Below, in pieces: positions 3,948 through 29,543 of a DNA stretch of 30,001 nt (within the stretch, counting starts at the first letter, position 1; every line of letters starts with the position of its first letter). A program made the translations under genes and the position numbers. Source of the DNA: a virus. The notes beneath the pieces are model-generated. The model was not told the origin of the DNA and ran no database searches. It saw only the letters and a list, made by a program, of their open reading frames with translations. The stretch is taken from positions 1-30,001 of the IMG/VR virus record IMGVR_UViG_3300025120_000334. One strand, written 5' to 3'.

Positions 3948-3955
3948 ATTAAATA
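3948..3955 (+). promoter_or_regulatory. Late-promoter-like box ATTAAATA before gp48
   Basis: ATTAAATA differs from the T4 late -10 element TATAAATA at two positions and ends six bases before the gp48 start codon. The same spacing is seen for other boxes in this window. No Shine-Dalgarno lies between it and the ATG, so transcripts from it would start at or next to the start codon. Confidence 0.5.
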
Positions 3956-3961
3956 TTTATA

Positions 3962-5140
3962 ATGCCAGATTTATACAGTTTTACATTTGACGCGACGAAA
4001 ACACTGCCAATATTATCTAGGGGTGGTGTAAATACTGTCGACACTTTTAGTTATAGTGGAGATGGTAGAATTTACGGTAAAATCAATAATAGTTCTACTG
4101 ACCCAATTGATGTAGTTGGTGATTTCCCTTGGACTAAAAGTCCTAAATCATCGCGTCAAGATGTACCTGCTGCATATATTAAAGAAAAAAGATTACTAAC
4201 TAACTCAACTTTAGCTAATTTCTTTTATAGTGTACTAGCAGGAGCAGAAGTAATTGAAGGAGCGGCTGATAGATTAGCTAGTGGTAATATACAAGTAGGC
4301 AGTAATACACTAAATGTATACGACTCATTAAGCGCTGCAGGTATTTCATATCCCGGTGTTCAGGAGGCTTTAACTGAAAAAGCTAAAAAATTTAGCAGTA
4401 GTGTAAAAGAAGCTAAAGAAATGGCTGCTGGGTTTTTAACACAAGGTAACCAAAAAGATAATATACTTAAACCATATAACGGGTTATACTATACTGAAGA
4501 TACTGGGTTTAAATATTTTTTACCTTACTTAAGCAATAATTATTTGGGTGTTGATAATACCTTCTCAGAAGATTCCCAAAAATTAGCAGGCTTAGATAAT
4601 ATATCTAAAACTTTAGCAGCAGGTTTCGATGTTGCCAGAGGGGTAGCTTTTATGGATAAACCTGGTGTCTATGTAGAACAAAGTAAGCAATATCAATTTG
4701 GACAAGAAGGTAGAACTTTTGATATTACCTTTCCATTATTAAATACAGGTTCATACGAGGACATAAAAAGAAACTGGCAACTCCTTTTTGGTCTAATATA
4801 TCAAAATAAACCAGGTCGTATAAATAGAAATTTATTAGAACTTCCAGTTATATATGAGTTTTATATCGAAGGCATGGCTTATATGCCTTATAGCTATATA
4901 TCGCAAATACAGATTGATTTTATAGGTAACAGAAGAACGATGGGTATGGATATACCTAGTTTTAATGATACAAGTGATAATGATGCATTAGGTGATAGAA
5001 CAAATATAACCACTGTTATACCAGATGCTTATAATGTTAAAATAACTTTTCAAGGTTTAAATAAAGAGACTAAAAATTTCTTAATACGTAGTTTAGGTGA
5101 TCCAATTATTAAAGTAAGAGAAAAAGGAGGTAATATCTAA
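3962..5140 (+). CDS. 48: Baseplate tail-tube cap protein gp48
   Basis: A 392-residue protein close to the T4 gp48 length (about 364). gp48 caps the central hub and, with gp54, nucleates the tail tube. Family-like signatures are PGVYVEQSKQYQF near residues 234-246, a FPLLNT strand at 257-262, LPVIYEFYIEGMAYMPYSYI at 304-323, the following IGNRR, and a C-terminal PDAYNVKITFQGL strand. The region around residues 85-155 contains Ala-rich helices. Its stop shares an A with the start of the gp53 gene (TAATG), and a strong AAGGAGG inside its last codons serves that gene. A late-promoter-like box sits six bases upstream of its start, so it may begin a sub-operon of gp48, gp53, hub protein and the 291-residue protein. 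Confidence 0.75.
   Translation: MPDLYSFTFDATKTLPILSRGGVNTVDTFSYSGDGRIYGKINNSSTDPIDVVGDFPWTKSPKSSRQDVPAAYIKEKRLLTNSTLANFFYSVLAGAEVIEGAADRLASGNIQVGSNTLNVYDSLSAAGISYPGVQEALTEKAKKFSSSVKEAKEMAAGFLTQGNQKDNILKPYNGLYYTEDTGFKYFLPYLSNNYLGVDNTFSEDSQKLAGLDNISKTLAAGFDVARGVAFMDKPGVYVEQSKQYQFGQEGRTFDITFPLLNTGSYEDIKRNWQLLFGLIYQNKPGRINRNLLELPVIYEFYIEGMAYMPYSYISQIQIDFIGNRRTMGMDIPSFNDTSDNDALGDRTNITTVIPDAYNVKITFQGLNKETKNFLIRSLGDPIIKVREKGGNI
5124..5130 (+). promoter_or_regulatory. Strong Shine-Dalgarno AAGGAGG for gp53
   Basis: AAGGAGG lies nine bases before the ATG at 5140, inside the end of gp48. It contrasts with promoter-proximal genes here, which lack such a site, and supports 5140 as the start despite its overlap with the previous stop. 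Confidence 0.8.
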
Positions 5141-5502
5141 TGGACGGTGCATATCAAAATAGTATAGTAAATTTGAAAAATTTAGATCTTACTCGTTATG
5201 AAAATATATTTAAAGTTTATAACACAGGAGAGAAAAACTTCTTTTATTATAATATAAATAAAAAAATATCTATACCTGACAATTTTGATGAAAGATTATT
5301 TTACCACATAGTATTACCAAGCGGTTTACCATTGACAACCTTATCATATAATGCATATGGTACTATCGATTTATGGTGGTTAATATTAATTTTAAATAAA
5401 ATTACGAACCCTATCAAAGATATACCTGAAGGTAAAAAAATTAGGCTTTTAAAGCCTGAATATATAGAACAAATTCTTGATTCCATAGAAAGACAGTTGT
5501 AG
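5140..5502 (+). CDS. 53: Baseplate wedge protein gp53-like
   Basis: A 120-residue protein. The segment SYNAYGTIDLWWLILILN (residues 69-86), then N-P, then I-P-E-G-K-K-I-R-L, is the hallmark of gp53-type wedge proteins: a Y/YG-x-x-x-x-W-W-x-I-L-x-x-N helix followed by the D/I-P-x-G strand of a LysM-like fold. T4 gp53 is 196 residues, so this is a short version that keeps the core. In T4, gp53 joins wedges around the hub. Start at 5140 is supported by AAGGAGG and by TAATG coupling to gp48. Its TAG stop overlaps the GTG start of the next gene. Confidence 0.7.
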   Translation: MDGAYQNSIVNLKNLDLTRYENIFKVYNTGEKNFFYYNINKKISIPDNFDERLFYHIVLPSGLPLTTLSYNAYGTIDLWWLILILNKITNPIKDIPEGKKIRLLKPEYIEQILDSIERQL

Positions 5503-7957: not shown

Positions 7958-8412
7958 TCGTTACTAACTTCGACATCAATTACTTTTGCATCATCAATTA
8001 ATTGTTTAAGTAATTCTTCTCTATTAATTGTTAAGCCAGCCTGCTCATTACTTTTATCTTGTAATTCCTTTTTGCTTTGTATATCCATTTCCTTTACCTG
8101 TATTTTAGCTTCATTAGCTTTATCTTGTAAAAGAATTTTATTTAAACTTTCAATAGCTGATGCTGATGCACCAATAAGTTTACTTAAAGCATCGACATCT
8201 CTAGCATCTGGTGCTGATGTTATAAATTGTTTAACATCTTCAACGTATTCTACACTATCTTTAATTAACTTACCTGAATATTGCAGTAAAAAATCTTCTA
8301 ATTTTTCTTTGTCGAGATTAAAATCTTGTTTCTCTAATTCTTTTTTAGCAACGTTTACACCTTTTAATTGCGAAAGTAAATCATCTACAACAATATCTAT
8401 ATCATCATCCAT
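7954..8412 (-). CDS. 16: Small terminase subunit gp16-like
   Basis: A 152-residue protein (T4 gp16 is 164). It has an acidic N-terminus (MDDDIDIVVDDLL), a predicted central helical hairpin with P-D-A-R-D-V-D-A-L-S-K-L-I-G and S-L-N-K-I-L-L (about 68-95), then a charged coiled-coil-like stretch and an acidic C-terminal tail. This arrangement, with an R/D-x-x-x-x-L/A-x-L-I helix followed by N-x-x-L-L, is how T4-type small terminases read. gp16 forms a ring that regulates the large terminase gp17 in DNA packaging. In T4 it lies directly before gp17; here it is a single-gene unit on the opposite strand from its neighbours with a perfect late promoter. The overlapping plus-strand frame at 8072-8443 is a shadow. 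The fold is not proven; a helical scaffold or neck protein is possible. Confidence 0.6.
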   Translation of the reverse strand: MDDDIDIVVDDLLSQLKGVNVAKKELEKQDFNLDKEKLEDFLLQYSGKLIKDSVEYVEDVKQFITSAPDARDVDALSKLIGASASAIESLNKILLQDKANEAKIQVKEMDIQSKKELQDKSNEQAGLTINREELLKQLIDDAKVIDVEVSND

Positions 8413-8420
8413 TGTAAAAA

Positions 8421-8428
8421 TATTTATA
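8421..8428 (-). promoter_or_regulatory. T4-type late promoter TATAAATA for gp16-like gene
   Basis: Read on the minus strand, TATAAATA is an exact match to the T4 late -10 element. It ends eight bases before the ATG of the small-terminase gene, with no Shine-Dalgarno in between. It lies just left of a sigma70-like promoter for the opposite direction. Confidence 0.8.
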
Positions 8429-8435
8429 GTAGAAG

Positions 8436-8463
8436 TTGAATAATTAAACTATTATAGTATAAT
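8436..8463 (+). promoter_or_regulatory. Sigma70-like (early) promoter TTGAAT-N16-TATAAT for the dUTPase operon
   Basis: TTGAAT at 8436-8441 and a perfect TATAAT at 8458-8463 are separated by 16 bp. The -10 box ends eight bases before the dUTPase ATG, so transcription would start about at the ATG. Use by the unmodified host polymerase, and hence early expression, is an inference from this structure and from the replication genes downstream. Confidence 0.7.
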
Positions 8464-8471
8464 AGGTATAT

Positions 8472-8939
8472 ATGGAAGAAAAAGTTATAATTAAATTTAT
8501 TAAAACGCATCCAGATGCTAAACTACCTACTAAAGCTCATAACGGTGATAATTGTTTTGATTTATATTGTGTTGAAGATACTGATATAGGTCCGAGTATG
8601 TGTAGTCCAATTGGAGCTGTGCAAATAACCAGCGGTGTTGTGCCTGTAGGTATTACAGTAGCATATATAACACCAGGTTATGGGTTTGTAATTAAACCTA
8701 AGTCTGGTCTTGGATTTAAACATAACTTACAACCACATTTAGGTGAAGTAGATAATGGTTACCGGGGTGATTGTGCTGTTAAGATGTATAATTTTAATGA
8801 TACTGAGTATGTTTTTGAAAAGGGTGATAAAGTAGCTCAGATTAAGATAGAAAAAATTTACGATACCACCGTTGAGTGGTCTGAAAGTATAGAAGAAGCA
8901 GAACGTGGAGATGCTGGTTTTGGATCATCAGGTAAATAA
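8472..8939 (+). CDS. dut: Trimeric dUTPase (dUTP diphosphatase)
   Basis: Hydrolyses dUTP to dUMP and pyrophosphate, keeping uracil out of phage DNA and feeding dTMP synthesis in the cytoplasm. All five trimeric dUTPase motifs are visible in its 155 residues: I, NCFDLYC (27-33); II, PKSGLG (76-81); III, GEVDNGYRGD (91-100) with the catalytic Asp94 and the substrate-stacking Tyr97; IV, KGDKVAQIKI (117-126); V, the glycine-rich RGDAGFGSSGK (145-155) at the very C-terminus. Length matches the usual 140-155. It opens a rightward operon behind a sigma70-like promoter and overlaps the SET-domain gene by one base (TAATG). There is no Shine-Dalgarno, in line with a leaderless start. Confidence 0.95.
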   Translation: MEEKVIIKFIKTHPDAKLPTKAHNGDNCFDLYCVEDTDIGPSMCSPIGAVQITSGVVPVGITVAYITPGYGFVIKPKSGLGFKHNLQPHLGEVDNGYRGDCAVKMYNFNDTEYVFEKGDKVAQIKIEKIYDTTVEWSESIEEAERGDAGFGSSGK

Positions 8940-9241: not shown

Positions 9242-9253
9242 GTATAATACGCA

Positions 9254-9412: not shown

Positions 9413-9473
9413 TGCGAAGGTGAGAAAGACGGTAACAGTAACTGTTACGAAGCCATCAAAAAGAAAAAAATAA
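9366..9473 (+). CDS. Very small basic hypothetical protein (35 aa), coupled to gp44
   Basis: ATG at 9366 to TAA at 9473. Twelve of its 35 residues are Lys or Arg, with a V-T-V-T-V-T strand in the middle. Its TAA overlaps the gp44 ATG (TAATG), the same coupling seen at real junctions here, which is the main argument for it. It starts inside the 52-residue frame, so one of the two may be spurious, or this one may act mainly as a coupling leader for gp44. The central part contains the perfect hairpin at 9432-9448. Confidence 0.45.
   Translation: MGKVTRQKITERKVGNAKVRKTVTVTVTKPSKRKK
9432..9448 (+). promoter_or_regulatory. Perfect stem-loop just upstream of gp44
   Basis: GTAACAG, loop TAA, CTGTTAC: seven exact base pairs with a three-base loop, 24 bases before the gp44 ATG. 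There is no U-run after it, so it does not look like an intrinsic terminator. It could tune gp44 translation; in T4, gene 44 is under translational repression by RegA, but no RegA site can be claimed here. Confidence 0.5.
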
Positions 9474-10387
9474 TGTTTAATAACTTATACGTAGAAAAGT
9501 ATAGACCTAAAACGTTATCAGATTTGGTATTATCTGATAGTAATAGAAAGTATTTTGAATCTATTACCGAAGAAATACCAAATCTGCTTTTCGTTGGTAC
9601 ACCTGGCTTAGGTAAGACTACATTAGCTAGAATATTAGTAAATGATATATTAGAGTGTCAATACCTTTATATTAATGCATCAGATGAAAATGGTATAGAT
9701 ACTATACGCTCCAAGGTAGTTGGCTTTAGTCAGACTAAGTCTCTCGATGGTAAACATAAAGTCGTCATCTTAGATGAGGCTGATGGTATTACCCTTGATG
9801 GTCAACGCGCACTACGTAATACAATGGAAGAATATAGTAGTATGACTCGTTTTATACTAACAGCAAATTATAAGCATAAAATAATACCTGCTATTCAAAG
9901 TAGAACACAATTCTTTGATCTAATGCCGCCGTTTGATGATGTTGTAAAACGTGTTATTAATATTGTTAAGGAGGAAGGTATCAAGATTGAAACTGATCAG
10001 AAACCTAATTTTGTTAATGTAATTAAGCAAAGTTATCCTGATATTCGTAAGGTATTAAATAGTATTCAAAAAGCTACTATTAGTAATATCTTTACAATTG
10101 ACCATAGCGTAGATAGTAAAGATATTGTTACCGTTATACATAAGCATGTTATATCTAACGATTCTCTAAAGCTTAGAAAGTATCTAATCGAGAATGAAAA
10201 TGAATTTCAAGGTGATTATCATAACTTAATGAAGCAATACTTAAATTATGTTTATACTTCTAGTTTAGATGACAATAAAAAACGTCAATATATAGTGACT
10301 ATTTCAGATCACATGTATAAAGACGTATTTGTATTAGATAAAGAAATTAATGCTTTTGCTTGCTGGGTTAATCTCGAGAAGATTTAA
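9473..10387 (+). CDS. 44: Clamp-loader large subunit gp44 (AAA+ ATPase)
   Basis: A 304-residue AAA+ protein (T4 gp44 is 319). With gp62 it loads the gp45 sliding clamp at primer ends, using ATP, for the phage DNA polymerase. Visible motifs: YVEKYRPKTLSDLV (6-19), typical of clamp loaders; Walker A GTPGLGKTT (42-50); Walker B VVILDEADG (97-105); sensor 1 FILTAN (127-132); the SRC-type arginine-finger motif as SRT (143-145); and a helical C-terminal collar domain. It is coupled to the preceding small frame through TAATG and ends the early operon. In T4 and many relatives gp62 follows directly; here the next gene is on the opposite strand, with stop codons overlapping in TTAA. Confidence 0.92.
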   Translation: MFNNLYVEKYRPKTLSDLVLSDSNRKYFESITEEIPNLLFVGTPGLGKTTLARILVNDILECQYLYINASDENGIDTIRSKVVGFSQTKSLDGKHKVVILDEADGITLDGQRALRNTMEEYSSMTRFILTANYKHKIIPAIQSRTQFFDLMPPFDDVVKRVINIVKEEGIKIETDQKPNFVNVIKQSYPDIRKVLNSIQKATISNIFTIDHSVDSKDIVTVIHKHVISNDSLKLRKYLIENENEFQGDYHNLMKQYLNYVYTSSLDDNKKRQYIVTISDHMYKDVFVLDKEINAFACWVNLEKI

Positions 10388-10968
10388 CCTTCAATCGGCA
10401 CATACTGCGTAGTATAACTTTCATTAACTGCAGGTGATTTAGTCGCTGGAGATGAAGGAATCTTAGTATTTTGTCTAGGATTTGACATTTCTGTCTTTTT
10501 AAGGCTATCTCCTTGTTGGGTCATTGTTTGCTGTTGCTCTTCATTTTCTTCTGCTTCAACTGGGTCAATTTGAACCTTATTATCATATCTATCAGAATCA
10601 GGTATCGGGTGTCTATTGATACCGTTATCTATTCTTTTCAAAATATCTGATGGAAGAGTAACTTTACCTTGATTATCATATCTACCATTTGCTAATTCTA
10701 AAGCAACATCTACATAAAAAGTAGTACCTCTATTATCACTATTTCCAGGTCCTGGTGTTAATGCATCAGTTTTAACATTAACTATATAATAATTTTTATC
10801 TGAATCGAAATATGTATCAATATACTCTTTTTGATCATCTGATAGTACTTTATAACTATCTTTACTTTTATAGTTTTTTGTAAGTTCAACAAGATCACCG
10901 GTCAAGAAACTACCATTTGACATTCTTGTAATAGTATTTTCTACGAGTTCTAAAAATTTACGTGCCAT
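10384..10968 (-). CDS. Unidentified late protein, single-gene unit
   Basis: A 194-residue protein. The N-terminal 125 residues look folded (helix MARKFLELVENTITRM, then G-S-F-L-T-G-D-L-V-E-L and beta strands around Y-Y-I-V-N-V-K-T and T-F-Y-V-D-V-A-L). The last 60-70 residues are Gln/Glu/Asn/Pro/Ser-rich and likely disordered. There is no signal peptide or membrane segment. It has its own late-type promoter (CATAAATA) ten bases upstream and lies between the early operon and a divergent late operon, so a virion or assembly role is the best guess. The stop shares TTAA with the gp44 stop. No family recognised. Confidence 0.75.
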   Translation of the reverse strand: MARKFLELVENTITRMSNGSFLTGDLVELTKNYKSKDSYKVLSDDQKEYIDTYFDSDKNYYIVNVKTDALTPGPGNSDNRGTTFYVDVALELANGRYDNQGKVTLPSDILKRIDNGINRHPIPDSDRYDNKVQIDPVEAEENEEQQQTMTQQGDSLKKTEMSNPRQNTKIPSSPATKSPAVNESYTTQYVPIEG

Positions 10969-10978
10969 AATATACTAA

Positions 10979-10986
10979 TATTTATG
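10979..10986 (-). promoter_or_regulatory. Late-promoter-like box CATAAATA for the 194-residue gene
   Basis: Seven of eight bases match TATAAATA. It ends ten bases before the minus-strand ATG. Together with the box at 11024 it forms a back-to-back pair of late promoters in a 69-base gap. Confidence 0.6.
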
Positions 10987-11023
10987 TTAACCGTTAGTTT
11001 TTTCTATAGTTTTTAGTGCTGTT

Positions 11024-11031
11024 TATAAATA
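11024..11031 (+). promoter_or_regulatory. T4-type late promoter TATAAATA for the 482-residue gene
   Basis: Exact TATAAATA ending six bases before the ATG at 11038, with no Shine-Dalgarno. The expected transcription start coincides with the start codon. Confidence 0.8.
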
Positions 11032-11037: not shown

Positions 11038-12486
11038 ATGGCCATAGAACTTAATATATTTGCAAATTTCGATACAACAGCAGTCACTGACCCAGAAAGA
11101 CAATATTATAACCTGCCGAGAAATAACTTACCGGTGTTAAATCAAATTACAGCAAGTATACCGTTAACTATTAATGAAAATGCTCCTGTTGATAAGTTAG
11201 TATTTTCTACCACCGGAATAGATGGTTATGGTTATAATGATGAAACCTTTAACTTTGATAAAACTTATTTTCAAAATCAAACTATATATTTTACTGCTAG
11301 AATTAAAACAAAAAATAATTACCCAGCAAATTATTTAAACAATCTATCTCTAGGTGATGGTAATGGTGACACTATAAAAATAGAACTTCTTGATGACAAT
11401 AATAATACCTTAGCAGCAACATTTTCAAGTAATTTTGGTGAGTTATCTTCTAATATCAAAGGTGGGTTTTTTAAAGGTGCATTTCAATACGATGGTACCG
11501 GTAATAATTTAAAATTGAAAGGGACGACTAAAGCCGGTGATATCATTAATCAAAGTAATACTTTTAATATGATACCAGTAAGCGGTACAAATGATTTTCG
11601 TAAGATAAATGAAGATAATAATCAAAAAACTAATTTTTTAAAATACCTTTACCAACCTAATTTAAAAAATAATCCTAAGTTTTTTACAGATATAATCGGT
11701 CAGATAGTAGGAGATGAAAAAGATCCTAGTACTTTAGGGGTAAAAGTCTATGAAAAAATATCTAATTTTCTTTTAAATTCAAATGATATAGATTATGCAA
11801 ATATTGATAATTTAATTAGTAGTTTAAAATTAATAGATAGCAACATTAATATATTTTCAGAACAATACCCAGCCAGTTTAAAAAGAATAGTAGATTTCTT
11901 TAGTGTAAATAGATCTAAAATTAAACCTATAACAAATAACTTTAATCAAGACTTCAATAATAACGGTAGACCTAGTTCTGGTTTAGGTAAAAATCTAGGT
12001 AAGGAAATAAGCCTTTCTCATACTTTATCTGGTGGGAAAAATTTTAAACCTATAGTTGCATATGAAAAATTTAGTAAAAGATATTATCTACTTAATACCG
12101 ACCCTACAAGTTCATTTGATTTTAGATATCTAGGAAATAATAAAACTTTTGAAATTTCATCATACAATGTTAATTGGGGTTGGGGATTAGATTTGCCAAA
12201 TGAGGTAGGTAATTTTACATATATGTTAAATGCTACAGGTGGTAATTTAGTGCTTGAAAATGGTTTTAGAATTTTAAATGAAGAAAAAGGTGTATCTACT
12301 AATCAAATAACAAATTATTATACATTTTTCGAATATATTTCTACTGTTAATAATAGTAATTTATTTGCATTTTATGACGATTCTAATACTAATTCTACCT
12401 GTGATCTTACTAATTTAAGTTCGATTAATAATAGTATAGATCAAATTGTATTAAAAGATATTTATACTGGTTCAAAATTAATATAA
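11038..12486 (+). CDS. Putative virion/tail protein, unidentified
   Basis: A 482-residue Asn-rich protein. Residues 1-180 look all-beta (alternating hydrophobic strands with D-G-Y-G-Y-N-D and G-D-G-N-G-D turns, then GGFFKGAFQYDGTG), like an Ig-type or carbohydrate-binding sandwich. A helical middle (about 215-300) includes Y-P-A-S-L-K-R-I-V-D-F-F-S-V-N-R-S-K. The C-terminal part is mixed. It heads a rightward series of large late proteins ending in fibres, so a baseplate-peripheral or fibre-attachment role is plausible but not shown. Exact late promoter upstream. No enzyme motif and no signal peptide. Confidence 0.7.
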   Translation: MAIELNIFANFDTTAVTDPERQYYNLPRNNLPVLNQITASIPLTINENAPVDKLVFSTTGIDGYGYNDETFNFDKTYFQNQTIYFTARIKTKNNYPANYLNNLSLGDGNGDTIKIELLDDNNNTLAATFSSNFGELSSNIKGGFFKGAFQYDGTGNNLKLKGTTKAGDIINQSNTFNMIPVSGTNDFRKINEDNNQKTNFLKYLYQPNLKNNPKFFTDIIGQIVGDEKDPSTLGVKVYEKISNFLLNSNDIDYANIDNLISSLKLIDSNINIFSEQYPASLKRIVDFFSVNRSKIKPITNNFNQDFNNNGRPSSGLGKNLGKEISLSHTLSGGKNFKPIVAYEKFSKRYYLLNTDPTSSFDFRYLGNNKTFEISSYNVNWGWGLDLPNEVGNFTYMLNATGGNLVLENGFRILNEEKGVSTNQITNYYTFFEYISTVNNSNLFAFYDDSNTNSTCDLTNLSSINNSIDQIVLKDIYTGSKLI

Positions 12487-12544: not shown

Positions 12545-12552
12545 TATAAATA
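12545..12552 (+). promoter_or_regulatory. T4-type late promoter TATAAATA for the 1323-residue gene
   Basis: Exact TATAAATA, seven bases before the ATG at 12560, with no Shine-Dalgarno. Confidence 0.8.
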
Positions 12553-16537: not shown

Positions 16538-18508
16538 ATGACAGTAAATAATACAGCAACTGAGTTTTATATAGGACAAGATTTAACTAACAATTCAAGT
16601 GATGAATATAAAACGATAACTACATCAAAAAAAATAGCATTTACTAATGGTGGAGAATTTACCTTTAACGGTTTAGATTATATCGGTTATTATAACTATG
16701 ACGGTACTACCTTTTATAAAAGTAAAAATTTACAAAATGACGTTTTAAATGTTGTAGAGAGTGTATATACAGATATTATAAAATCTAAAAAGTTCTTTGA
16801 TAGAACCATTTTTACTAAATTAAACACTTCCTATGTAACAGATGATATTATTTTTAAACCGAATGAAATAATAAATAAAAATTCTATTAATTTTAAATTT
16901 AATCTTTTATATGACAATTTTATGGATCTTATTAGATTTACTAGTATTAATGATCCTTTAATACCTACTGACTACAAAGCATATGCAGTATTATCTAGTA
17001 CTAATCTTGGTACTGATTGGCAATGGGTAGCTTCGAACGTAAGATTTATATCAGGTGGTCTAGACCCCAGTTTAGTTCAATTATCAAGTTATAATTCACA
17101 ATTTGAAAATTCTGATACCGTTAATTCTTTAGCTATAAGAAGTACTAAAAATCCTGACGAATATACATTATTTGTATCTACCAGTACTTTCGTCTTTGCA
17201 TACCAAATAGATGATACTGAAACAATGTTTGATTTTGTATTAAGTGCTGATGCACTAGGTAATGATAATCAATTGAAATTTAGAGGTATAACTAGTATAG
17301 CATCAGATAATGATAAAAATATACTCTATATTAATGATAGGAATGTTAAACAAATATATAAAACTGAGGTTAAAACTATTATTAATAAAGATAGAACCGG
17401 TATTAGAAAACTGAAACTTTTAGATACAATTGGCGGTGAAGGTAATGATGTAAGTAATTTTAATGATAATACATATGTTGAATACGGTAATAAAAATATA
17501 TTTGTATATGATCTTGTTGATAAAGGTATTAAAAAATTTAGTAGTGATTTTCAATATAAAATTGAATACAATAATTTTAAATTTTTTGCTGAAAATGAAT
17601 TCGTTAGTATGACCTATAATAATACTTTTGATTTATTATATGTTATAACCAATACATTTACTGTTTTAGTATTAAATGCAAATAATTTTAATGAAGTTGA
17701 TAGGTTCACATTAACTAGTAATCCTTTTGAATTTTCTATACCGCTGTTAGCTAAATTTGAACTACCTAGGAAAATAGTTTTTTCAGAAAATAATAGCAAT
17801 GTATACTATCTACAGACTACTAAAAATGTCTATAAATATTTTATAAATACCCAATCAAAAAATATAGAAAAATTTACTATTAATATCCAATTTGATACAG
17901 TAAATTTATGGAATACAATATTTACTAAATTTTCAGCAACTAATGTAGCCTGGGATGAAAAACCTGATTTTGATAAATTTACATTAATAAAAACAGGTTT
18001 AGTATTAATAGGTAGCCAAACAAATAAATCAGATAAGTTATTATTATGGTCTAATAAAAGGATATTTAGTTTTGTTGAAAACAATGATCGAATCAGTTTA
18101 TTAAATACAAAAAAGCCAAATTTTTACAACAAAAATGAAATATTCTTAAATGATGAATATTTTAATAATATAACTTTTAATTCAACTATATATAGACATT
18201 TATTTAATTTAAATTTATTAGGTTCCAATTTAAATAAAAAGCTATTAGCGCAATTTGATACTATTGAAACTAATGGTTATTTAAGATTTAAAGAATTTTT
18301 AGAAATGAGTCACGAAGATAAGGATACATTAGATATTATTGATGGTAAACAATTTTTCGTCGGAATTAATGAAACTTTAAACGGCAATACTTTAAACAGG
18401 GTAATGGAAAACGTTATCAAATATCAAAATAAAATAATACAAACTGTTGACACGAAAAGAATTGGTGAAAGGATACCCATTTTAAAGACAGTACTATTAG
18501 ATAAATAA
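16538..18508 (+). CDS. Putative virion protein with beta-propeller-like repeats (656 aa)
   Basis: A 656-residue protein, six bases downstream of the 1323-residue gene and six bases upstream of the first S74 fibre. The middle third (about 205-440) has repeated strand pairs that read like propeller blades: I-A-S-D-N-D-K-N-I-L-Y-I-N-D, Y-G-N-K-N-I-F-V-Y-D-L-V-D-K-G-I-K-K-F, F-D-L-L-Y-V-I-T-N-T-F-T-V-L-V-L-N, V-Y-Y-L-Q-T-T-K-N-V-Y-K-Y-F. This pattern (x-x-L-Y-V-x-N/D-x-x-x-x-I-x-x-F) is also seen in the 1323-residue neighbour, so the two may be related or stack together. The C-terminal part is helical and charged. No catalytic motif. Likely tail appendage; function unknown. Confidence 0.72.
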   Translation: MTVNNTATEFYIGQDLTNNSSDEYKTITTSKKIAFTNGGEFTFNGLDYIGYYNYDGTTFYKSKNLQNDVLNVVESVYTDIIKSKKFFDRTIFTKLNTSYVTDDIIFKPNEIINKNSINFKFNLLYDNFMDLIRFTSINDPLIPTDYKAYAVLSSTNLGTDWQWVASNVRFISGGLDPSLVQLSSYNSQFENSDTVNSLAIRSTKNPDEYTLFVSTSTFVFAYQIDDTETMFDFVLSADALGNDNQLKFRGITSIASDNDKNILYINDRNVKQIYKTEVKTIINKDRTGIRKLKLLDTIGGEGNDVSNFNDNTYVEYGNKNIFVYDLVDKGIKKFSSDFQYKIEYNNFKFFAENEFVSMTYNNTFDLLYVITNTFTVLVLNANNFNEVDRFTLTSNPFEFSIPLLAKFELPRKIVFSENNSNVYYLQTTKNVYKYFINTQSKNIEKFTINIQFDTVNLWNTIFTKFSATNVAWDEKPDFDKFTLIKTGLVLIGSQTNKSDKLLLWSNKRIFSFVENNDRISLLNTKKPNFYNKNEIFLNDEYFNNITFNSTIYRHLFNLNLLGSNLNKKLLAQFDTIETNGYLRFKEFLEMSHEDKDTLDIIDGKQFFVGINETLNGNTLNRVMENVIKYQNKIIQTVDTKRIGERIPILKTVLLDK

Positions 18509-18514: not shown

Positions 18515-19441
18515 ATGAGTACAGAAATTAATAGTTTAGCGGGTGAGATAATTGCATTTACTTACCCGTCATTAATAAAAGTAGCTGATAATGGTTTCAT
18601 ACCTACCGAACAAGGTGGTAATAGAACTACAGGTGTAGTTTTAAATAACCCTAACAAAAGTGGCGCGCCGCGTGCGTTAGCAAGATTATCTGACGGTAAT
18701 GGTAATATAGGTTCAATATCTATTGGTCAATCTGATGCAGGAGCCAAAGTTTTTGGACCTTTAATAGTAGATGGCTCTACAAACTGCGTTGTAGGTAAGG
18801 TATTAGAAGTACAAAAAGGAGGAGTTTGTATTGAAAAACAAATTTGCGCATGTGGGGTTGGTTCTAATCATTTATGTGGTTCAACCAATACATGTAATTT
18901 AAATGTTGCCAATGCATTAGTTGTTACTAATTCGATATGTCAAACAGCAGCTGGTGGTAGTACATCATTGGAAGGTGACTTTTTTGTTGGTCCTGAAGCT
19001 GGTAGAAAGTTTTCAGTTGACAATCTCACAGGTAATACGACAATGTGTGGTACAGGAAACATAGGAAATGATTGTACTACAGGAACAATAACTTTAACTA
19101 ATAAAGGTTTACTTTTAAATAAAGGTGTAATTAGAGGATGTGCTGATATTATAGCTTTTTATTCATCTGACAAAAGGCTTAAAAATAATATAGTTAAAAT
19201 TAAAGATTCAAACAATATTATTAATAATATTAATGGATATGAATTTGATTGGAAAGAAAATGCTGATAGGGAAGGTTCTGATTTAGGAATTATAGCTCAA
19301 GAAGTAAAAGAAGTATTACCTGAAATAGTGCATGAGAGAGAAGATGGATATTTATCTGTAGATTATGTAAAACTTATACCAGTGTTAATTGAAGAAGTTA
19401 AAAGTTTAAATAATAGAATTAAAGTATTGGAGGAAAAATAA
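18515..19441 (+). CDS. Cys-rich tail fibre with C-terminal S74-type self-cleaving chaperone domain (first copy)
   Basis: A 308-residue protein. The C-terminal 90 residues are an intramolecular chaperone (Peptidase S74/CIMCD). The SDKRLK motif gives the Ser218/Lys223 pair expected for autocleavage, then G-Y-E-F-D-W, G-I-I-A-Q-E-V, E-D-G-Y-L-S-V-D-Y, L-I-P-V-L-I-E-E-V-K and a final heptad-like helix. In this family the domain drives trimerisation of a beta-helical fibre and is then cut off. The N-terminal part (residues 1-100) resembles a capsid- or tail-decorating beta domain, and the middle has ten Cys, many in C-x-C or C-x4-6-C spacing. It lies in a late operon with a paralogue directly after it (TAATG overlap). 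A GC-rich patch containing GGCGCGCC lies at 18662-18669. Confidence 0.85.
   Translation: MSTEINSLAGEIIAFTYPSLIKVADNGFIPTEQGGNRTTGVVLNNPNKSGAPRALARLSDGNGNIGSISIGQSDAGAKVFGPLIVDGSTNCVVGKVLEVQKGGVCIEKQICACGVGSNHLCGSTNTCNLNVANALVVTNSICQTAAGGSTSLEGDFFVGPEAGRKFSVDNLTGNTTMCGTGNIGNDCTTGTITLTNKGLLLNKGVIRGCADIIAFYSSDKRLKNNIVKIKDSNNIINNINGYEFDWKENADREGSDLGIIAQEVKEVLPEIVHEREDGYLSVDYVKLIPVLIEEVKSLNNRIKVLEEK
19429..19433 (+). promoter_or_regulatory. Shine-Dalgarno GGAGG for the second S74 fibre
   Basis: GGAGG seven bases before the ATG at 19441, inside the end of the first fibre gene. It supports the start that overlaps the previous stop. Confidence 0.8.
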
Positions 19442-22805: not shown

Positions 22806-22810
22806 AAATA

Positions 22811-22818
22811 TATTTAAT
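22811..22818 (-). promoter_or_regulatory. Late-promoter-like box ATTAAATA before gp6
   Basis: Read on the minus strand, ATTAAATA ends five bases before the gp6 ATG and touches the stop codon of gp25. Two mismatches to TATAAATA, but the same variant occurs before gp48 and before the 917-residue gene. Confidence 0.5.
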
Positions 22819-23294
22819 TAATAACTATAGAAACCAGATTTGTTTAATCTACCTTTTAAATTTAATGGGTTATAATTAAATTCAGGTATATTAATTATTA
22901 TATTTAATTCGTATTCTTGCATTGCAATATCAGCGATAACTTCGATGGATGTTACTTGTATACGAGGTTCAAAACCAACAAATGTATTATTAATAGTCTC
23001 ACCAATAACAGTAGCTCTAGCTTTTGAGACTGGTAAAAAAAGAAGATCACCAAAATTCATACCAAATTCGGGATTTAATATTTTCTGCCCCGGAAATGTA
23101 GTTATTAAATTAATAAGGGAATTTTTTATCGCCTCAAAATTTACTGATGTATTTAAATCTTTTAAATTTTGAGGACTATCTAATTGATCGCCTTTTACAA
23201 TACCAACATCAACATTTAGATCCAAATCTTTATATATAACATTTTCTTGAGTTATCTTTTTTAATGGTTCTAAAATATTTAATTTAATAGGCAT
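22818..23294 (-). CDS. 25: Baseplate wedge protein gp25 (lysozyme-like family)
   Basis: A 158-residue protein (T4 gp25 is 132). gp25 sits at the sheath/wedge interface and, with gp6 and gp53, forms the core wedge bundle. The central signature is present: A-I-K-N-S-L-I-N-L-I-T-T-F-P-G-Q-K at 55-71, directly followed by I-L-N-P-E-F-G-M-N, then L-L-F. This corresponds to the I-x-x-S-I-x-N-L-L-x-T-x-x-G-E-R-x-x-x-P-x-F-G pattern of the family, with Gln where Glu is usual. The C-terminal strand E-L-N-I-I-I-N-I-P also fits. A 30-50 residue N-terminal extension accounts for the extra length. Late-type box five bases before the ATG. Confidence 0.85.
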   Translation of the reverse strand: MPIKLNILEPLKKITQENVIYKDLDLNVDVGIVKGDQLDSPQNLKDLNTSVNFEAIKNSLINLITTFPGQKILNPEFGMNFGDLLFLPVSKARATVIGETINNTFVGFEPRIQVTSIEVIADIAMQEYELNIIINIPEFNYNPLNLKGRLNKSGFYSY

Positions 23295-23299
23295 ATTGA

Positions 23300-23307
23300 T
23301 ATTTATT
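23300..23307 (-). promoter_or_regulatory. Late-promoter-like box AATAAATA before gp25
   Basis: One mismatch to TATAAATA. It ends five bases before the gp25 ATG, with no Shine-Dalgarno between. Confidence 0.6.
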
Positions 23308-23314
23308 AAAAGTG

Positions 23315-26068
23315 TTAAGTGCTTAAAAAGTTATATAAAGTATTATTTTTATCAATTAAATTTAAAATAAAATTACCGTTGTTAGTTTTTTGACCATTTA
23401 TTGCTTTCAATTGCAGTGGTGATATATCTGAAATTAATTTTACTATTCTAAGATTAACTGTCGTTATTTTACCATTTTCATAATAAAACTTGATTGAACC
23501 TGTAGATGAAACTGCGCTACTGAAAGAATTGTATATATGGGTAAAGTTATCTAATATTAAAGTATTATCTGATGATTGAAATTTGGAATATATAGTTTTA
23601 TTAGTATTATCTCCAAAATCTATTTCGGCTTTATATAAACTTTTACCTGATGAGTTTTGAGTAACATTTTTGAGATCAAAATTTATATCTGTCCCATCAC
23701 CTGAATAAGTTAAGGTAACAGTTCTGAAAAAACTAGCAGCAGGGAATGAAAGTGACGGTAAAACACAATCTCCGCTACCCGTTAAAAAATTAAAAAATGA
23801 ACTATTTGCAGTACTAGTCCTTTGAGCTTCTGCCTTTACCTGGTTTGTTACCGCCGTTATTGAGGAATTATTTAAGTTACTAAATAAATCGTTTTTAATA
23901 ATTGAAATTTTATTATTAATAATTTTATAATTAAAATAATGTATAACTATTGAATTATTAGTATTTGTATACGTTGTAGTTAAAATATAAGAATCGTCTA
24001 AACTATTATATTTTAAATCACTGTTTACTAACTTATTAATTGTAATACCACCACCAGAATAATTAAAATTAAAAGTATTTAAAAAGTATGAAGAAGTTTC
24101 AGTATTTACAGTACTTATTTCATCAATAATTTTCCTACTGGTATCATATTTATAAAGTTCATATATAAAAGTATTAGACGTACTTACACCGGATAAGCTT
24201 ATATTAAATTTATAAACTGAATTATTATTATAACAATCTTTAGTTATAAATGCAAAGTTAGGGTGTATTAAATCTTTCTTCAAGATTAAAGGTGAACTTG
24301 TTTGACCTATATATTTTTTATCATATTTAAATGAATCTACAACAGTAAACGTACTTAAATCTAAGCTAAAAGTATCTTCATATATATTAATATCTAAAAT
24401 ATTTGAACCGGTAATTTGATTATATAATGTATTGTTAGATGAAAACTTATCATAAATAACATTAAAACTTGAACCTGATAACGGCTTAAGTTCCTTAGTT
24501 ACTACATCTTTTATAAAAATATTTTTATAACTAAAATTTTTATCATGTAATCCGGAAAGGGGGTCAATATCACCATACCTATTTTGTGTTATATCAATTG
24601 TATTACCTGACTTAAAAGTTGAATTATTAATTATATCAATATCAGCAGTATTTCTAATTACCCCTAAATTAGGAATTATTTGTATATATTCATTACCATA
24701 AATATCAGTTTGAATTTTATCAACAGAACCATAATTAATTAAATCATTTAATGTATTTGAAAATTTCCCACCATTAGTTATATCAATCCTTTTATTTTCT
24801 AAGGATTGATATGAATGAAAATAGTGATTTCTTTCATCTGATTTTACTGTATTGCGTGAAGATGATGATGAAATATTTTTATAAGTATTAGAATCAAAAT
24901 AAAAGTTAAATGGATTTTTTCTTTTTGTATTGCTTAAATTTACCACATCACCATACTCAGCGGGGTCAGGAAAAACATAAACATAATTATCAATTAGTTG
25001 CTTCTTGATTCTTCTTATGTATTCACCATCTACTTTTAATATTGAGAATTTAGTAGGATTAAAAAATAGACCAACGCTTCTTTCATAACCGCTCGGTTCC
25101 TTTTCTTTTGCCATAACTGAAGGAAAGTTTATATTAAATAAATTTTTAGCTTTATTTTTGGCTTCAAATAATCTACCAGAAACGTATTCGGTACCGGTAT
25201 TACTCAAATAATAATAGTCCGTACCTACTAAATTTTCAGATAACTCAGCTTCAAATAATACTCTATATGTATCAGTATTATCAGTAATTTTATAATCAAT
25301 AAAATCATCTTTTTTTAATAAACTAGTATTTACTTGATTAAATTCAATAATTAATTTATAGGGATTTAATTCACTAATAGTAATTTTATTATCATTTAAA
25401 ACTTTAATTAAAGCTTGATCAATATCTAAGAAAACGTTAGTATTAATATCATTCGATATATACGTTTCGTTAGAAGGTACTGTGGCAGGATTAACATCGA
25501 AATAATTATTAAATGTATCGTAACCTAACTCAACATCTATTCTAAGAGATGATAATGAAACTATCTCACCTGTATAGTCAGGACTAGAAAAAAAGTTAAC
25601 TATATTGTTCTTAATTTGATCTTTAACACTTAGACTACTACCTCTATCTTTATTTTCTCTTAACTCTTGTTGGAAAGTATTTCTTTTTTCTCTATAATAG
25701 TTTAAAATCTCTACAATTTTAGACCGATAAAATGGTATTATTTTAGATAATGAACTTTCATCATTTAAATCAATTGTATTAAAAAATCTTCTTTGCTCTT
25801 GGGTCGAATATTTTAAAGTTAAATCATTAAAAAAATTTAAATAAATTGCTTTAATATTAACCGAATTATCTTTATTATTACTAAAATCAGTCGCCTTCCA
25901 TTTTTCTAGATATTTTTTATATTGATTAAAATTTTCTAAATCATTTGTATCAATTACCTTTACATAGTTTAAATATTCAATAAAATTGAAAGGGCTACCA
26001 ACATCAAATTTATCGTCAGATAAAGTATTAGTTATGCTATTATTAACTACGTACTCTGTAAACTTCAT
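23315..26068 (-). CDS. Large baseplate-cluster structural protein (917 aa), unidentified
   Basis: A 917-residue Asn/Asp/Ser-rich protein between the gp5-like spike and gp25. Residues 1-130 are charged and helical. Around 325-380 is a distinctive block, V-G-L-F-F-N-P-T-K-F-S-I-L then D-N-Y-V-Y-V-F-P-D-P-A-E-Y-G, which has the look of a conserved structural motif. The second half is beta-rich, and residues about 795-870 contain a PKD-like element (I-D-F-G-D-N-T and, further on, F-T-H-I-Y). Size and place would suit a wedge scaffold protein with the role of T4 gp7 (1032 residues), which is otherwise missing here, but I see no sequence proof. Late-type box six bases upstream. Confidence 0.75.
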   Translation of the reverse strand: MKFTEYVVNNSITNTLSDDKFDVGSPFNFIEYLNYVKVIDTNDLENFNQYKKYLEKWKATDFSNNKDNSVNIKAIYLNFFNDLTLKYSTQEQRRFFNTIDLNDESSLSKIIPFYRSKIVEILNYYREKRNTFQQELRENKDRGSSLSVKDQIKNNIVNFFSSPDYTGEIVSLSSLRIDVELGYDTFNNYFDVNPATVPSNETYISNDINTNVFLDIDQALIKVLNDNKITISELNPYKLIIEFNQVNTSLLKKDDFIDYKITDNTDTYRVLFEAELSENLVGTDYYYLSNTGTEYVSGRLFEAKNKAKNLFNINFPSVMAKEKEPSGYERSVGLFFNPTKFSILKVDGEYIRRIKKQLIDNYVYVFPDPAEYGDVVNLSNTKRKNPFNFYFDSNTYKNISSSSSRNTVKSDERNHYFHSYQSLENKRIDITNGGKFSNTLNDLINYGSVDKIQTDIYGNEYIQIIPNLGVIRNTADIDIINNSTFKSGNTIDITQNRYGDIDPLSGLHDKNFSYKNIFIKDVVTKELKPLSGSSFNVIYDKFSSNNTLYNQITGSNILDINIYEDTFSLDLSTFTVVDSFKYDKKYIGQTSSPLILKKDLIHPNFAFITKDCYNNNSVYKFNISLSGVSTSNTFIYELYKYDTSRKIIDEISTVNTETSSYFLNTFNFNYSGGGITINKLVNSDLKYNSLDDSYILTTTYTNTNNSIVIHYFNYKIINNKISIIKNDLFSNLNNSSITAVTNQVKAEAQRTSTANSSFFNFLTGSGDCVLPSLSFPAASFFRTVTLTYSGDGTDINFDLKNVTQNSSGKSLYKAEIDFGDNTNKTIYSKFQSSDNTLILDNFTHIYNSFSSAVSSTGSIKFYYENGKITTVNLRIVKLISDISPLQLKAINGQKTNNGNFILNLIDKNNTLYNFLST

Positions 26069-26074
26069 ATATAA

Positions 26075-26082
26075 TATTTAAT
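26075..26082 (-). promoter_or_regulatory. Late-promoter-like box ATTAAATA before the 917-residue gene
   Basis: It ends six bases before the ATG, inside the 35-base gap that follows the gp5-like gene. Same variant as before gp48 and gp6. Confidence 0.5.
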
Positions 26083-26103
26083 ATGTTAATTAATATTAGG
26101 GTT

Positions 26104-28455
26104 TTAGCCGGTCAAATTATTAAATGCTGTTTGCATATTATTGATGATCTCCAAACCACTTTTTAATGTATTGAATTGAGGAGTTGCTACAACCCTATCT
26201 GTACCATTAATACCACTATTTTTAGCCGAGTTACGGGTACTTTCATTTGTATCAGTCAATGTTAAAGGTATGTTATTAAATGAGTGTGTATGTGGATAAG
26301 TTGCAACGGTGTCTGGTATTGGTGGTACACCTAAAGCACCACCACTGGCTACTACTGGTAAACTTATAGGTGGCCCTGCGCCGGAACAGAAAGTATTGCC
26401 AGGAATAATTACATGACCTATAGTTTTATTACTCATTACTTGTCCTAAAGTTTGAGTTGTGTTTGTAACTTGTATTTCAGCTGGTGCAGTTACATGCTGT
26501 AAAAATACTTCCCCTTCAACGGATAAACCCCCTCCAATTACTACATTTTTATTAACACCGAGACCACCATCTACTAAAATTTGTCTTTGTCTTTTATTTC
26601 GCAGTTTTAATATTTCGGCACTTATATTAATAACTTTAGCATCTAAATTAATTTCATTTTCCGAACCAACATTAACTTGTTGACCAGCAATATTTGTAAT
26701 ACTACCTGATATATTAGTCGGTCCATAGGACTTAAGATTTAAACCACCAGCCCCTACCATAACATTATACCTGTTATTAACGTTTAAATTATATGTACCT
26801 CCAGGTAAATCTTGTACATCAACATATTCAAGTAAAGGTCCTGAATCACTATTAACATAAGTCGCATTACTACCTACAAGAACTTCATTACTAACTAGTT
26901 TACCAATAGGGTCAAATCTAATACTACCATAATCATTCATTACAGTACCTATATTTTCTAATTTATTTTTGCTAATCTCAATAATTTCACTACCACCTAA
27001 ACCGAAATCTCTTTCTACAAGCATTAAATCGGCTTGAATTTCTAATATTTCTTTATTCAAATTTTTTGGTTGAAAATCCCATGTACCGTCTTGAGTTGAA
27101 GGGCTGTTACCTTCACCGTTAACGAATGTACTGCTTGATTCTGCTGGCCAATTTTCTTTTGTAGTACCAATATTTGAACTAGCAACAGGTTTCGGTTCAA
27201 CTGAACCACCTTGTAAAGTTTTTAAATTATTATCAAAAACTGGTACTCCACCACCTTGAGAGAAACCAGAAATATTAACCCCGGTACCAAAGTAAAAATC
27301 AGGTTGATCTTCAAATTTATTACTATTGTTTAAAGCAAGATATTCATCGGTTTCAACAGGTGGAAATTTAGCAAACGTTCCAGATCTTTCCTGATTTATA
27401 CTATTAAGTCTAATAATAACATCTCCATTTGAAGTTATATTATTATTTTCAGCTCGCTTCCTATCAAATAATTGTTTTATATCCTGTATTACCCCGTATT
27501 TTTGTTTCCAATCATCAAAAAAAGCTTCGTTTAAATTGCCGATTTTTTTATACTTATCTCTTAAAATTATCTCATCATAATTTTTTCCAGTAAACTCATT
27601 TTTAAAACCTTTAACTGTATTAAATTCATCATTAATAACTAATTTTTGATTATTTTTAGTAGCAAGTTCTGAATTTGTATTGTTATTAAACTCTTTGAAT
27701 GAACCTGAATAGTGGGTTAATTTAATTTTTTCATTATGATCAGTATTGTTTATTTCAAAAGTACCACCTTTTTGATTTAGAACATATTTGTTCCTATAAG
27801 TTTGTACGTTATAATCCTCTTCAGTAGAACTACTATCATAATTTTCATATTTTCCAGGGTAATCTACCTCACTATCGTATATACCTTGCCAATCATCTTT
27901 ACCAAATGATGTACCAATTAGAACAGGAAATTGGGTATTACCGTCCCTAAAAAATACATATACGTGAGCACCTACACTTGGAATACCAAACGAGCCTTTT
28001 GCTTTATTCGCGTAAGTATTAGGTTTGTAATTGAAAGAATATGGGTTTATATTATTAACATTATTATTATTATCGCTAAAAGCATCACTTAATCTGAACA
28101 TACTTTGGTCGTATATTTCACCAGAAGAAGTTGAACTATCTGCACTTAAGTTAGTAAAAGAATTTGTATCTGATACAGTAGCTTTATTAGTGTAATTGTT
28201 ATATCTTTTAGATGTATTTTCACTTGTTAAAGGACAACTAACTTCAGCCCATGGTAGTATAGTTTTTAGTTTAGCCATTATAGGTTCTAAATTACCATCG
28301 ATTGATTTAAAGAACTTATCTTTATTATCACCTACCCAATTTTCATATACGGTCGGTGATAAATGTGGTACGAATACTTTAACCCTACCTCTTTTTTGTG
28401 GATCATTATTTTGGACTACTATGCCTAAATATATACTATTAAATTCTTTTTCCAT
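26104..28455 (-). CDS. 5: gp5-like central spike/hub protein, without lysozyme domain
   Basis: A 783-residue spike protein. The N-terminal OB fold starts with M-E-K-E-F-N-S-I-Y-L-G-I-V-V and continues N-N-D-P-Q-K-R-G-R-V-K-V-F-V-P (to about residue 30), as in gp5 and other phage baseplate V/VgrG proteins. About 153-195 follows the conserved G-S-F-G-I-P-S-V-G-A-H-V-Y-V-F-F-R-D-G and P-V-L-I-G pair. The rest is beta-rich and repetitive, ending in a region with P-H-T-H-S-F (His722, His724). No T4-lysozyme-type catalytic segment is present. I choose 28455: the frame extends to ATGs at 28494-28503, but these lie within the preceding gene, whereas 28455 starts at the conserved OB sequence and has AAAGG five bases before it. 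In the virion the trimer pierces the outer membrane. Confidence 0.87.
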   Translation of the reverse strand: MEKEFNSIYLGIVVQNNDPQKRGRVKVFVPHLSPTVYENWVGDNKDKFFKSIDGNLEPIMAKLKTILPWAEVSCPLTSENTSKRYNNYTNKATVSDTNSFTNLSADSSTSSGEIYDQSMFRLSDAFSDNNNNVNNINPYSFNYKPNTYANKAKGSFGIPSVGAHVYVFFRDGNTQFPVLIGTSFGKDDWQGIYDSEVDYPGKYENYDSSSTEEDYNVQTYRNKYVLNQKGGTFEINNTDHNEKIKLTHYSGSFKEFNNNTNSELATKNNQKLVINDEFNTVKGFKNEFTGKNYDEIILRDKYKKIGNLNEAFFDDWKQKYGVIQDIKQLFDRKRAENNNITSNGDVIIRLNSINQERSGTFAKFPPVETDEYLALNNSNKFEDQPDFYFGTGVNISGFSQGGGVPVFDNNLKTLQGGSVEPKPVASSNIGTTKENWPAESSSTFVNGEGNSPSTQDGTWDFQPKNLNKEILEIQADLMLVERDFGLGGSEIIEISKNKLENIGTVMNDYGSIRFDPIGKLVSNEVLVGSNATYVNSDSGPLLEYVDVQDLPGGTYNLNVNNRYNVMVGAGGLNLKSYGPTNISGSITNIAGQQVNVGSENEINLDAKVINISAEILKLRNKRQRQILVDGGLGVNKNVVIGGGLSVEGEVFLQHVTAPAEIQVTNTTQTLGQVMSNKTIGHVIIPGNTFCSGAGPPISLPVVASGGALGVPPIPDTVATYPHTHSFNNIPLTLTDTNESTRNSAKNSGINGTDRVVATPQFNTLKSGLEIINNMQTAFNNLTG

Positions 28456-28465
28456 AATACCTTTA

Positions 28466-28473
28466 TATTTACC
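28466..28473 (-). promoter_or_regulatory. Possible weak late-promoter-like box GGTAAATA before gp5
   Basis: Six of eight bases match TATAAATA, ten bases before the chosen gp5 start, overlapping the stop of the upstream gene. Because a Shine-Dalgarno AAAGG is also present, gp5 may simply be translated from the upstream gene's transcript. Confidence 0.3.
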
Positions 28474-29530
28474 TATATTGTACAAATTTTCCATCATGAT
28501 CAAGTATTACACGCCTACGTTTTGATGGATCATTTACATTATCCTCAGTAACTTCGATTGCGTTATATAATAATATTTCATTAGTGTCGGGATCTCTTAT
28601 GGCTGTCAAATTAGTATAAGATACTGATCGCGTAGGAGTAACTTCTGAAGTTACTAAATCATCTTTTAAAAATTCTAAATAGGTTAAAGTTTCTTCTTCT
28701 TTATCATACCTATTAGTTAAATCAATTTTTCTAGTTACTGGTTCAACTTGGGTAATGGTTTTTATGTTAAACTGGGAACCAGCTATTACTTCTTTATTAA
28801 CTGTAGCTTGTTCTGCAATTTCGACATCAAAAAATGAAAAACTTGGATTAAATGTATCTATTGGACCGTCAACACTATTATTAGATATATCAGTAATCTG
28901 GGTATCAAATATTGATGTTTCACTAACACTATTAAATGATAAATCAAAAATTTTATCTTTTTGTTGTTGCTCTAACAAATTTACAAATGCTAATTGTTTT
29001 TCTGGGCTGAATGTAAAATCTCTTATTTGAGTATTGGATAGTTTATTCATACTACCTAATACATCAATACCACTTTTACCGGCGATAATACCAGCCTCAA
29101 TTTCATCACTTATATCTGAAACCTGGCTAGTTAAAGCAGAATTTAATTTATCACCTAAAGATAAATCATCTAAATTTAATTCTTTAAAATTTTTTGCAAG
29201 ATTTTTAGTAAAATTATTTAAATTTACCCCAATGTTTTCATCGATTAAACCATAAAGTGAATTTAAATTTAAACTACCTAAAGATGGAAATGGTAAACCC
29301 TTTAAAGCATTTGCAAAATTAATACCACCTGTTAACTTCGACAGGTTTAAATTTAAACTAGTACCTATCATACCTTTAATATTACTACCTAAACTACTTG
29401 TTGCAGTATTAATAAGATTAGTTTTTACCATCTTACTTAAGTTTTGGATTTTAGAAGTAGCCACATTTCTTATATTATTAGTAATACTACCAATTATACC
29501 AGAAAAATCTATATTAAGACCGAATGCCAT
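28469..29530 (-). CDS. Unidentified structural or assembly protein upstream of gp5
   Basis: A 353-residue protein. The first 130 residues are Leu/Asn/Gly/Ser-rich, with amphipathic stretches (L-N-L-N-S-L-Y-G-L, N-L-N-N-F-T-K-N-L-A-K-N-F) and no charge clusters. The middle is acidic and helical. The last 120 residues are beta-rich with R-D-P-D-T-N-E-I-L-L-Y-N-A-I-E-V-T and a C-terminal K-R-R-R-V-I-L-D-H-D-G-K-F. It is the first gene of the leftward baseplate operon, directly before gp5, which suggests a spike-associated or hub-assembly function; nothing in the sequence proves it. It is divergent from the TGT-like gene, with 46 bases between starts. Confidence 0.72.
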   Translation of the reverse strand: MAFGLNIDFSGIIGSITNNIRNVATSKIQNLSKMVKTNLINTATSSLGSNIKGMIGTSLNLNLSKLTGGINFANALKGLPFPSLGSLNLNSLYGLIDENIGVNLNNFTKNLAKNFKELNLDDLSLGDKLNSALTSQVSDISDEIEAGIIAGKSGIDVLGSMNKLSNTQIRDFTFSPEKQLAFVNLLEQQQKDKIFDLSFNSVSETSIFDTQITDISNNSVDGPIDTFNPSFSFFDVEIAEQATVNKEVIAGSQFNIKTITQVEPVTRKIDLTNRYDKEEETLTYLEFLKDDLVTSEVTPTRSVSYTNLTAIRDPDTNEILLYNAIEVTEDNVNDPSKRRRVILDHDGKFVQYR

Positions 29531-29535
29531 ATATA

Positions 29536-29543
29536 TATTTACT
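29536..29543 (-). promoter_or_regulatory. Late-promoter-like box AGTAAATA heading the leftward baseplate operon
   Basis: Two mismatches to TATAAATA; it ends five bases before the ATG at 29530. It overlaps by one base the -35 box of the rightward early-type promoter. Confidence 0.5.

Follow-up and report, generated by a model that had tools for sequence, protein, structure and literature searches.

The window, by which we mean the whole 30,001-nucleotide stretch analysed here, is a 30 kb fragment of a virus contig with a G+C content of 28%. It encodes the baseplate proteins gp53, gp6, gp25 and gp5, S74 fibre proteins, a dUTPase and a gp44-type clamp loader. At 11 of its 24 gene starts the word TAAATA lies 5-10 nt upstream of the ATG. 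These putative late-promoter boxes are given below, where the gap is the number of bases between box and ATG and the fractions refer to orthologues with a box at the gaps stated.

3950-3955, plus strand: putative late-promoter box TAAATA, gap 6 to the ATG at 3962; orthologue upstreams at gap 5-7, 13/28
8421-8426, minus strand: putative late-promoter box (TATAAATA), gap 8 to the ATG at 8412; orthologue upstreams at gap 5-8, 26/39
10979-10984, minus strand: putative late-promoter box TAAATA, gap 10 to the ATG at 10968; orthologue upstreams at gap 5-7, 37/48
11026-11031, plus strand: putative late-promoter box (TATAAATA), gap 6 to the ATG at 11038; orthologue upstreams at gap 5-7, 11/12
12547-12552, plus strand: putative late-promoter box (TATAAATA), gap 7 to the ATG at 12560; orthologue upstreams at gap 6-7, 5/5
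18502-18507, plus strand: putative late-promoter box TAAATA, gap 7 to the ATG at 18515 of the first S74 fibre gene, operon-internal
22811-22816, minus strand: putative late-promoter box TAAATA, gap 5 to the ATG at 22805 of gp6 (phrog_219); orthologues at gap 5-7, 27/79, and with no box, 49/79
23300-23305, minus strand: putative late-promoter box TAAATA, gap 5 to the ATG at 23294 of a gp25-like gene (phrog_261); orthologues at gap 5-8, 46/64
26075-26080, minus strand: putative late-promoter box TAAATA, gap 6 to the ATG at 26068; orthologue upstreams at gap 5-9, 32/37
28466-28471, minus strand: putative late-promoter box TAAATA, gap 10 to the ATG at 28455 of a gp5-like gene (phrog_430); orthologues at gap 10, 6/8
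29536-29541, minus strand: putative late-promoter box TAAATA, gap 5 to the ATG at 29530; orthologue upstreams at gap 5, 5/7

A first-pass annotation of this DNA had described ten of these boxes, all of which are present, and had overlooked the one at 18502-18507. Its statement that the boxed genes lack Shine-Dalgarno (SD) sites is borne out, as none of the 11 boxed window starts carries the motif. Its view that the boxes are placed by distance to the start codon also held up against randomised sequence: 5000 first-order Markov simulations gave a mean of 0.66 boxed starts and a maximum of 5, and rotating the upstream regions of the same window gave 1.5 expected and a maximum of 6. Chance in sequence of 28% G+C could be invoked because the window holds 115 copies of TAAATA, both strands counted. 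The word being so common, the signal lies in its position rather than in its presence, and a box at gap 5-8 was found at 39% of real starts vs 0.2% of internal ATGs of the same genes. Low G+C does not yield the pattern elsewhere: the T4-like phage XG4, with 31% G+C, has zero boxes at gap 5-10, which, together with the T4 peak at gap 26-28, argues that AT content is not the cause. The word ATAAAT is contained within TATAAATA and so is not an independent control; it was dropped in favour of internal ATGs and the GC-matched phage. Refuted by the null models, the internal-ATG and positional controls and XG4, chance retains a negligible probability.

To extend the analysis beyond the window, viral contigs were scanned twice for gp6, each scan contributing 80 loci (135 distinct), with the second scan represented by the best 80 of 520 confirmed relatives. 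ORFs were called mechanically with ATG starts only, so that GTG starts are undercounted except in the count of codons at the predicted +1 given below. The gap pattern is alike in nearly all of the 135 related loci listed. Among 1819 distinct starts pooled, 8 genes have TAAATA at gap 4 as opposed to 262 with the word at gap 5 (binomial p about 7e-67, kinship ignored). Such pooled counts are inflated by relatedness; the effect is visible in each long genome alone, the number of genes rising from gap 4 to gap 5 from 0 to 36, 0 to 17, 1 to 34, 2 to 5 and 0 to 37 in five contigs of 71-221 kb. The exception is G004, in which 2, 5 and 12 genes fall at gaps 4, 5 and 6 and the peak is at 6. Orthologues of the boxed window genes retain the box while its gap shifts between 5 and 8, seldom below 5, with gp6 the weakest case; orthologues of operon-internal window genes mostly have no box, gp53 being a partial exception (10/34). 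The predicted leaderless layout is thus a property of a large phage lineage and not of one phage, which the first-pass annotation had missed.

The step between gaps 4 and 5 coincides with the predicted transcription start. The eight-base late box of T4 starts at -13 (PMC2988020), so that its last A is at -6 and a gap of 5 places +1 on the A of the ATG. On this register a gap below 5 would put the RNA 5' end within the start codon or beyond it, and exactly those gaps are missing. The bases following the box point the same way. At gaps 7, 9, 10 and 11 an A occupies the sixth position beyond the box in 69-75% of cases and a T the fifth in 46-67%, although at gap 8 the share of A at the sixth position is just 39%; with A and T at these positions wherever the ATG sits, the initiator context appears to track the box and not the ATG. 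Long ORFs have ATG at the predicted +1 in 233 cases, GTG in 26 and TTG in at most 3, and RTG at +1 is the experimentally found rule for mycobacterial leaderless mRNAs (PMC4633059). The box consists of the TAAATA core in fixed register and shows no consensus further upstream; its positions 1-2 are barely conserved (TA in 84/494 vs 11/16 in the T4 region). As it is looser than the box of T4, the exact register is drawn from analogy and from these context statistics.

The start codons themselves might be mis-called, such that the mRNA begins at these ATGs, translation begins at a later in-frame ATG and a leader exists after all. Mis-calling of starts is frequent in phage genomes rich in AT, which counts for this possibility. 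Across 1459 orthologue pairs of boxed genes, however, codons 2-6 differ at rates of 0.30, 0.22 and 0.51 at positions 1, 2 and 3, and substitution biased towards the third position from codon 2 onwards indicates that the boxed ATGs are real starts. The sequence upstream is conserved as a box and not as coding sequence; differences in the 11 bases before the ATG run at 0.21 vs 0.43 further upstream, a conservation that is expected because the box itself was part of the selection. With 259 cases of ATG or GTG falling precisely on the predicted +1, we regard mis-called starts as extremely improbable. The claim of the first-pass annotation that the late mRNAs are leaderless is therefore strongly backed in sequence by the gap-5 step, the box-fixed initiator context and the use of ATG or GTG, not TTG, at +1, while the RNA 5' ends and the mechanism of translation are the part of the explanation that we infer.

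The same geometry was found at promoters of another type, two of which lie in the window.

8436-8463, plus strand: predicted sigma70-type early promoter TTGAAT-N16-TATAAT, gap 8 to the ATG at 8472 (dUTPase), predicted leader of ~2 nt
29543-29570, plus strand: predicted sigma70-type early promoter TTGATA-N16-TATAAT, gap 6 to the ATG at 29577, predicted leaderless

The second of these stands back to back with a minus-strand late box within 35 bases (29536-29570). The dUTPase orthologue of G002 has the same TTGA/TATAAT class of promoter at gap 6. Among starts without a late box, TATAAT at a gap of exactly 6 precedes 30 genes in G001 (0.7 expected) and 10 in G002. These fall into two sets, one with TTGA upstream at a 16-bp spacer, and the other with GGAAC five bases before the -10 (GGAAC-N5-TATAAT-N6-ATG), of which there are 21 intergenic copies in G001 (L107-L117) and 8 in G002 (L093-L102). 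The TTGA-N16-TATAAT class looks like sigma70 early promoters, and GGAAC-TATAAT, with its element just upstream of the -10, is a candidate and probably a middle class; both temporal labels are ones that we infer. A sigma70 -10 element ending at -7 places +1 at the ATG when the gap is 6, so that a geometry independent of the late box again puts +1 at the ATG. The early-type genes at 8472 and 29577 (both plus strand), which the earlier annotation had not noticed, thus appear to obey the same leaderless rule. This bears on whether TAAATA could be no promoter and instead an AU-rich translation element that replaces the SD sequence at a fixed spacing. Such an element would account for the constant spacing to the start codon and the AT-rich bases between, but TATAAT stands at offset 6 and not 5, matching -10 geometry, with TTGA 16 bp upstream.

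Genes inside operons begin differently. The first-pass annotation had assigned them SD sites, naming gp53, the second S74 fibre gene and gp5; the first two are confirmed below, whereas gp5 (28455, minus strand) has a late box at gap 10 instead.

5125-5130, plus strand: Shine-Dalgarno AGGAGG before gp53, ATG at 5140
19429-19433, plus strand: Shine-Dalgarno GGAGG before the second S74 fibre gene, ATG at 19441
9473-10387, plus strand: gp44-like clamp loader (phrog_168, 1.8e-71), with a one-base overlap between its ATG and the stop of a small ORF upstream

Most operon-internal window genes have no SD, so that SD as the second mode of initiation does not stand as a general rule: it applies to two window genes and, in the five long relatives, to ~9% of internal starts (38/412 internal genes without a promoter box, vs roughly one start in two in the T4 region). 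A one-base overlap with the preceding stop is seen at the window starts 5140, 5502, 7082, 8939, 9473 and 19441, two of which have an SD as well. In the five long contigs the commonest offsets of internal starts to the preceding stop are -4, -1 and +1, that is, overlapping or abutting. With SD rare and internal starts placed in this way, such genes seem as a rule to be translated by coupling to the stop codon upstream, which would make coupling, and not SD, the main second mode. Coupled genes need translation signals too and mostly have no box, which also argues against TAAATA as a translation element.

The boxes might be real late promoters while the translated mRNAs come mainly from promoters upstream, so that long leaders do the work and leaderless transcripts are minor. 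Read-through mRNAs are to be expected, as ~30-45% of boxed genes in the long relatives closely follow a gene on the same strand. However, read-through in the right sense is unlikely for boxed genes that are first in an operon or face a divergent gene (28/65 in G002), and SD sites, present in 6/241 boxed genes of the five long relatives, are all but missing both behind a same-strand gene and elsewhere. Moreover, a leadered mRNA would have no need of a start codon fixed so precisely, to a single base, at the +1 edge. Translation mainly from upstream transcripts is therefore judged unlikely.

In a gp6 tree of 106 rows, nearly all of the 102 rows belonging to the lineage have the leaderless layout; it is a quick tree with long outgroup branches, and its deeper order was not relied on. 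Nested inside the lineage is a supported three-row subclade (L087, L075 and L079) in which an SD occurs in 8/17, 5/11 and 5/7 genes, respectively, and in which most boxes lie further upstream, ahead of the SD, which fits a promoter and counts against a translation element. The sister of this subclade is L086/L081. The G+C content of this subclade is as low as that of the rest (30-34%). Its nested position indicates that leaders were regained inside the lineage with no change in the low G+C, and the subclade offers a natural on/off comparison for the loss or gain of leaders.

Parts of the machinery expected of T4-type late transcription were sought in the window and its relatives. Four long relatives encode a gp55 homologue in which domain 2 and the RIKKEK region are conserved (hhalign against T4 gp55, E 7e-12; in G002 at L097:12635-13108); none was found in the 30-kb window, itself a fragment. 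A 244-aa protein of the relatives has a predicted PCNA/sliding-clamp fold (pLDDT 86) and was recognised as a candidate gp45 clamp through that fold, direct profile searches against T4 and PDB giving no match. The relatives thus encode a protein of predicted sliding-clamp fold and the window a gp44 clamp loader, as T4-type late promoters would require. The presence of gp55 in relatives again speaks against the boxes being translation elements, which we hold to be highly improbable.

The best explanation, and in our judgement a very probable one, is lineage-wide leaderless expression from T4-type (gp55) and sigma70-type promoters. The boxes would be T4-type late promoters used by the host's RNA polymerase in complex with gp55, the sigma factor of the phage, with transcription beginning at the A of the start codon at gap 5 or 1-5 nt upstream at gaps 6-10; genes at gaps 8-10, with predicted leaders of 3-5 nt, are near-leaderless rather than leaderless. 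Late mRNAs of this kind, leaderless or nearly so, would make SD use impossible, and ribosomes would initiate at an AUG or GUG at the very 5' end. For early genes and probable middle ones, sigma70-type -10 boxes would play the same part at the corresponding distance (TATAAT-N6-ATG), and operon-internal genes would start by coupling to the stop of the preceding gene, a few retaining an SD. With moderate confidence we extend this to a broader picture, in which a large, uncultured and widespread T4-like lineage has largely abandoned SD initiation, its three promoter classes (sigma70-type early, GGAAC-TATAAT probable middle and gp55 late) start on the start codon, its internal genes are stop-start coupled, and L087, L075 and L079 have reverted to longer, SD-led leaders.

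Genome contigs scanned with the gp6 alignment and phage NrdB yielded no relatives, and the nearest cultured relatives are distant (highest identity 28% for gp6 and 38% for terminase). Indirect clues to the host conflict, bS21 and tmRNA in several members against sigma70-type TTGA/TATAAT early promoters, and were not used. The tmRNA tag of one member begins GEN, which we take to be Bacteroidetes-like; TAnnTTTG, the Bacteroidetes -7 motif, showed no clear enrichment. The tmRNAs of L206 and L209 (G012 and G009), read by hand, seemingly have a long tag that does not end in the usual LAA (...MAMSLEEADAILAQHGFVDAEAELELV). A 221-kb member of the lineage carries a GOLLD RNA (179 bits; L114:3025-3472) near a tmRNA and about 39 tRNA genes. 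Genes for bS21 occur in several members (L091/L119 and L198-L202), possibly linked to ribosome use in an SD-poor phage. G002 has genes for the curli-secretion proteins CsgG (L096:561-1352) and CsgF (L096:1349-1813), which have also been reported for pelagimyophages (PMC7029224).

T4, whose late messages are led by an SD, is the standard example in textbooks of how phages regulate their genes. If leaderless translation is indeed joined to the T4 late-promoter machinery across the genome of a sister lineage, transcription and translation start sites can merge throughout a large lytic phage, which bears on how phages capture ribosomes in hosts that may use SD little. For annotation, gene finders that expect a ribosome-binding site will misplace starts in these genomes.

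A search of the open-access literature turned up no description of late genes being leaderless in T4-like phages. The likeness to T4 comprises the TAAATA core without a -35 element (the TATAAATA box), the gp55 homologue, the sliding-clamp fold and the clamp loader; the boxes of T4, however, lie mostly 26-28 nt before ATGs with an SD, whereas those of the present lineage lie 5-7 nt away with none. Syn9 and phiM9 have zero boxes at gap 5-10, and these two phages, T4 and XG4 retain longer leaders. Pelagibacter phages are mixed. Among the T4-like marine myophages of this host, HTVC008M has boxes at gaps 5, 5 and 8 and Mosig at gaps 5, 5, 5 and 10, but both differ from the lineage in that most of their boxes are far from an ATG and 33-43% of their genes have an SD. 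Proteins of HTVC008M, Mosig and Syn9 share about 23-38% identity with those of the lineage. The freshwater Bacteroidetes phages that encode bS21, as several members of the present lineage do, are large lake phages, and their description does not mention leaderless mRNAs (PMC9723584). Mycobacterial leaderless mRNAs share the start codon at +1, the restriction to ATG and GTG and the dispensability of the SD (PMC4633059), but they are cellular and were mapped by experiment, whereas the present case is a phage lineage read from sequence whose predicted promoters include a phage-sigma class.
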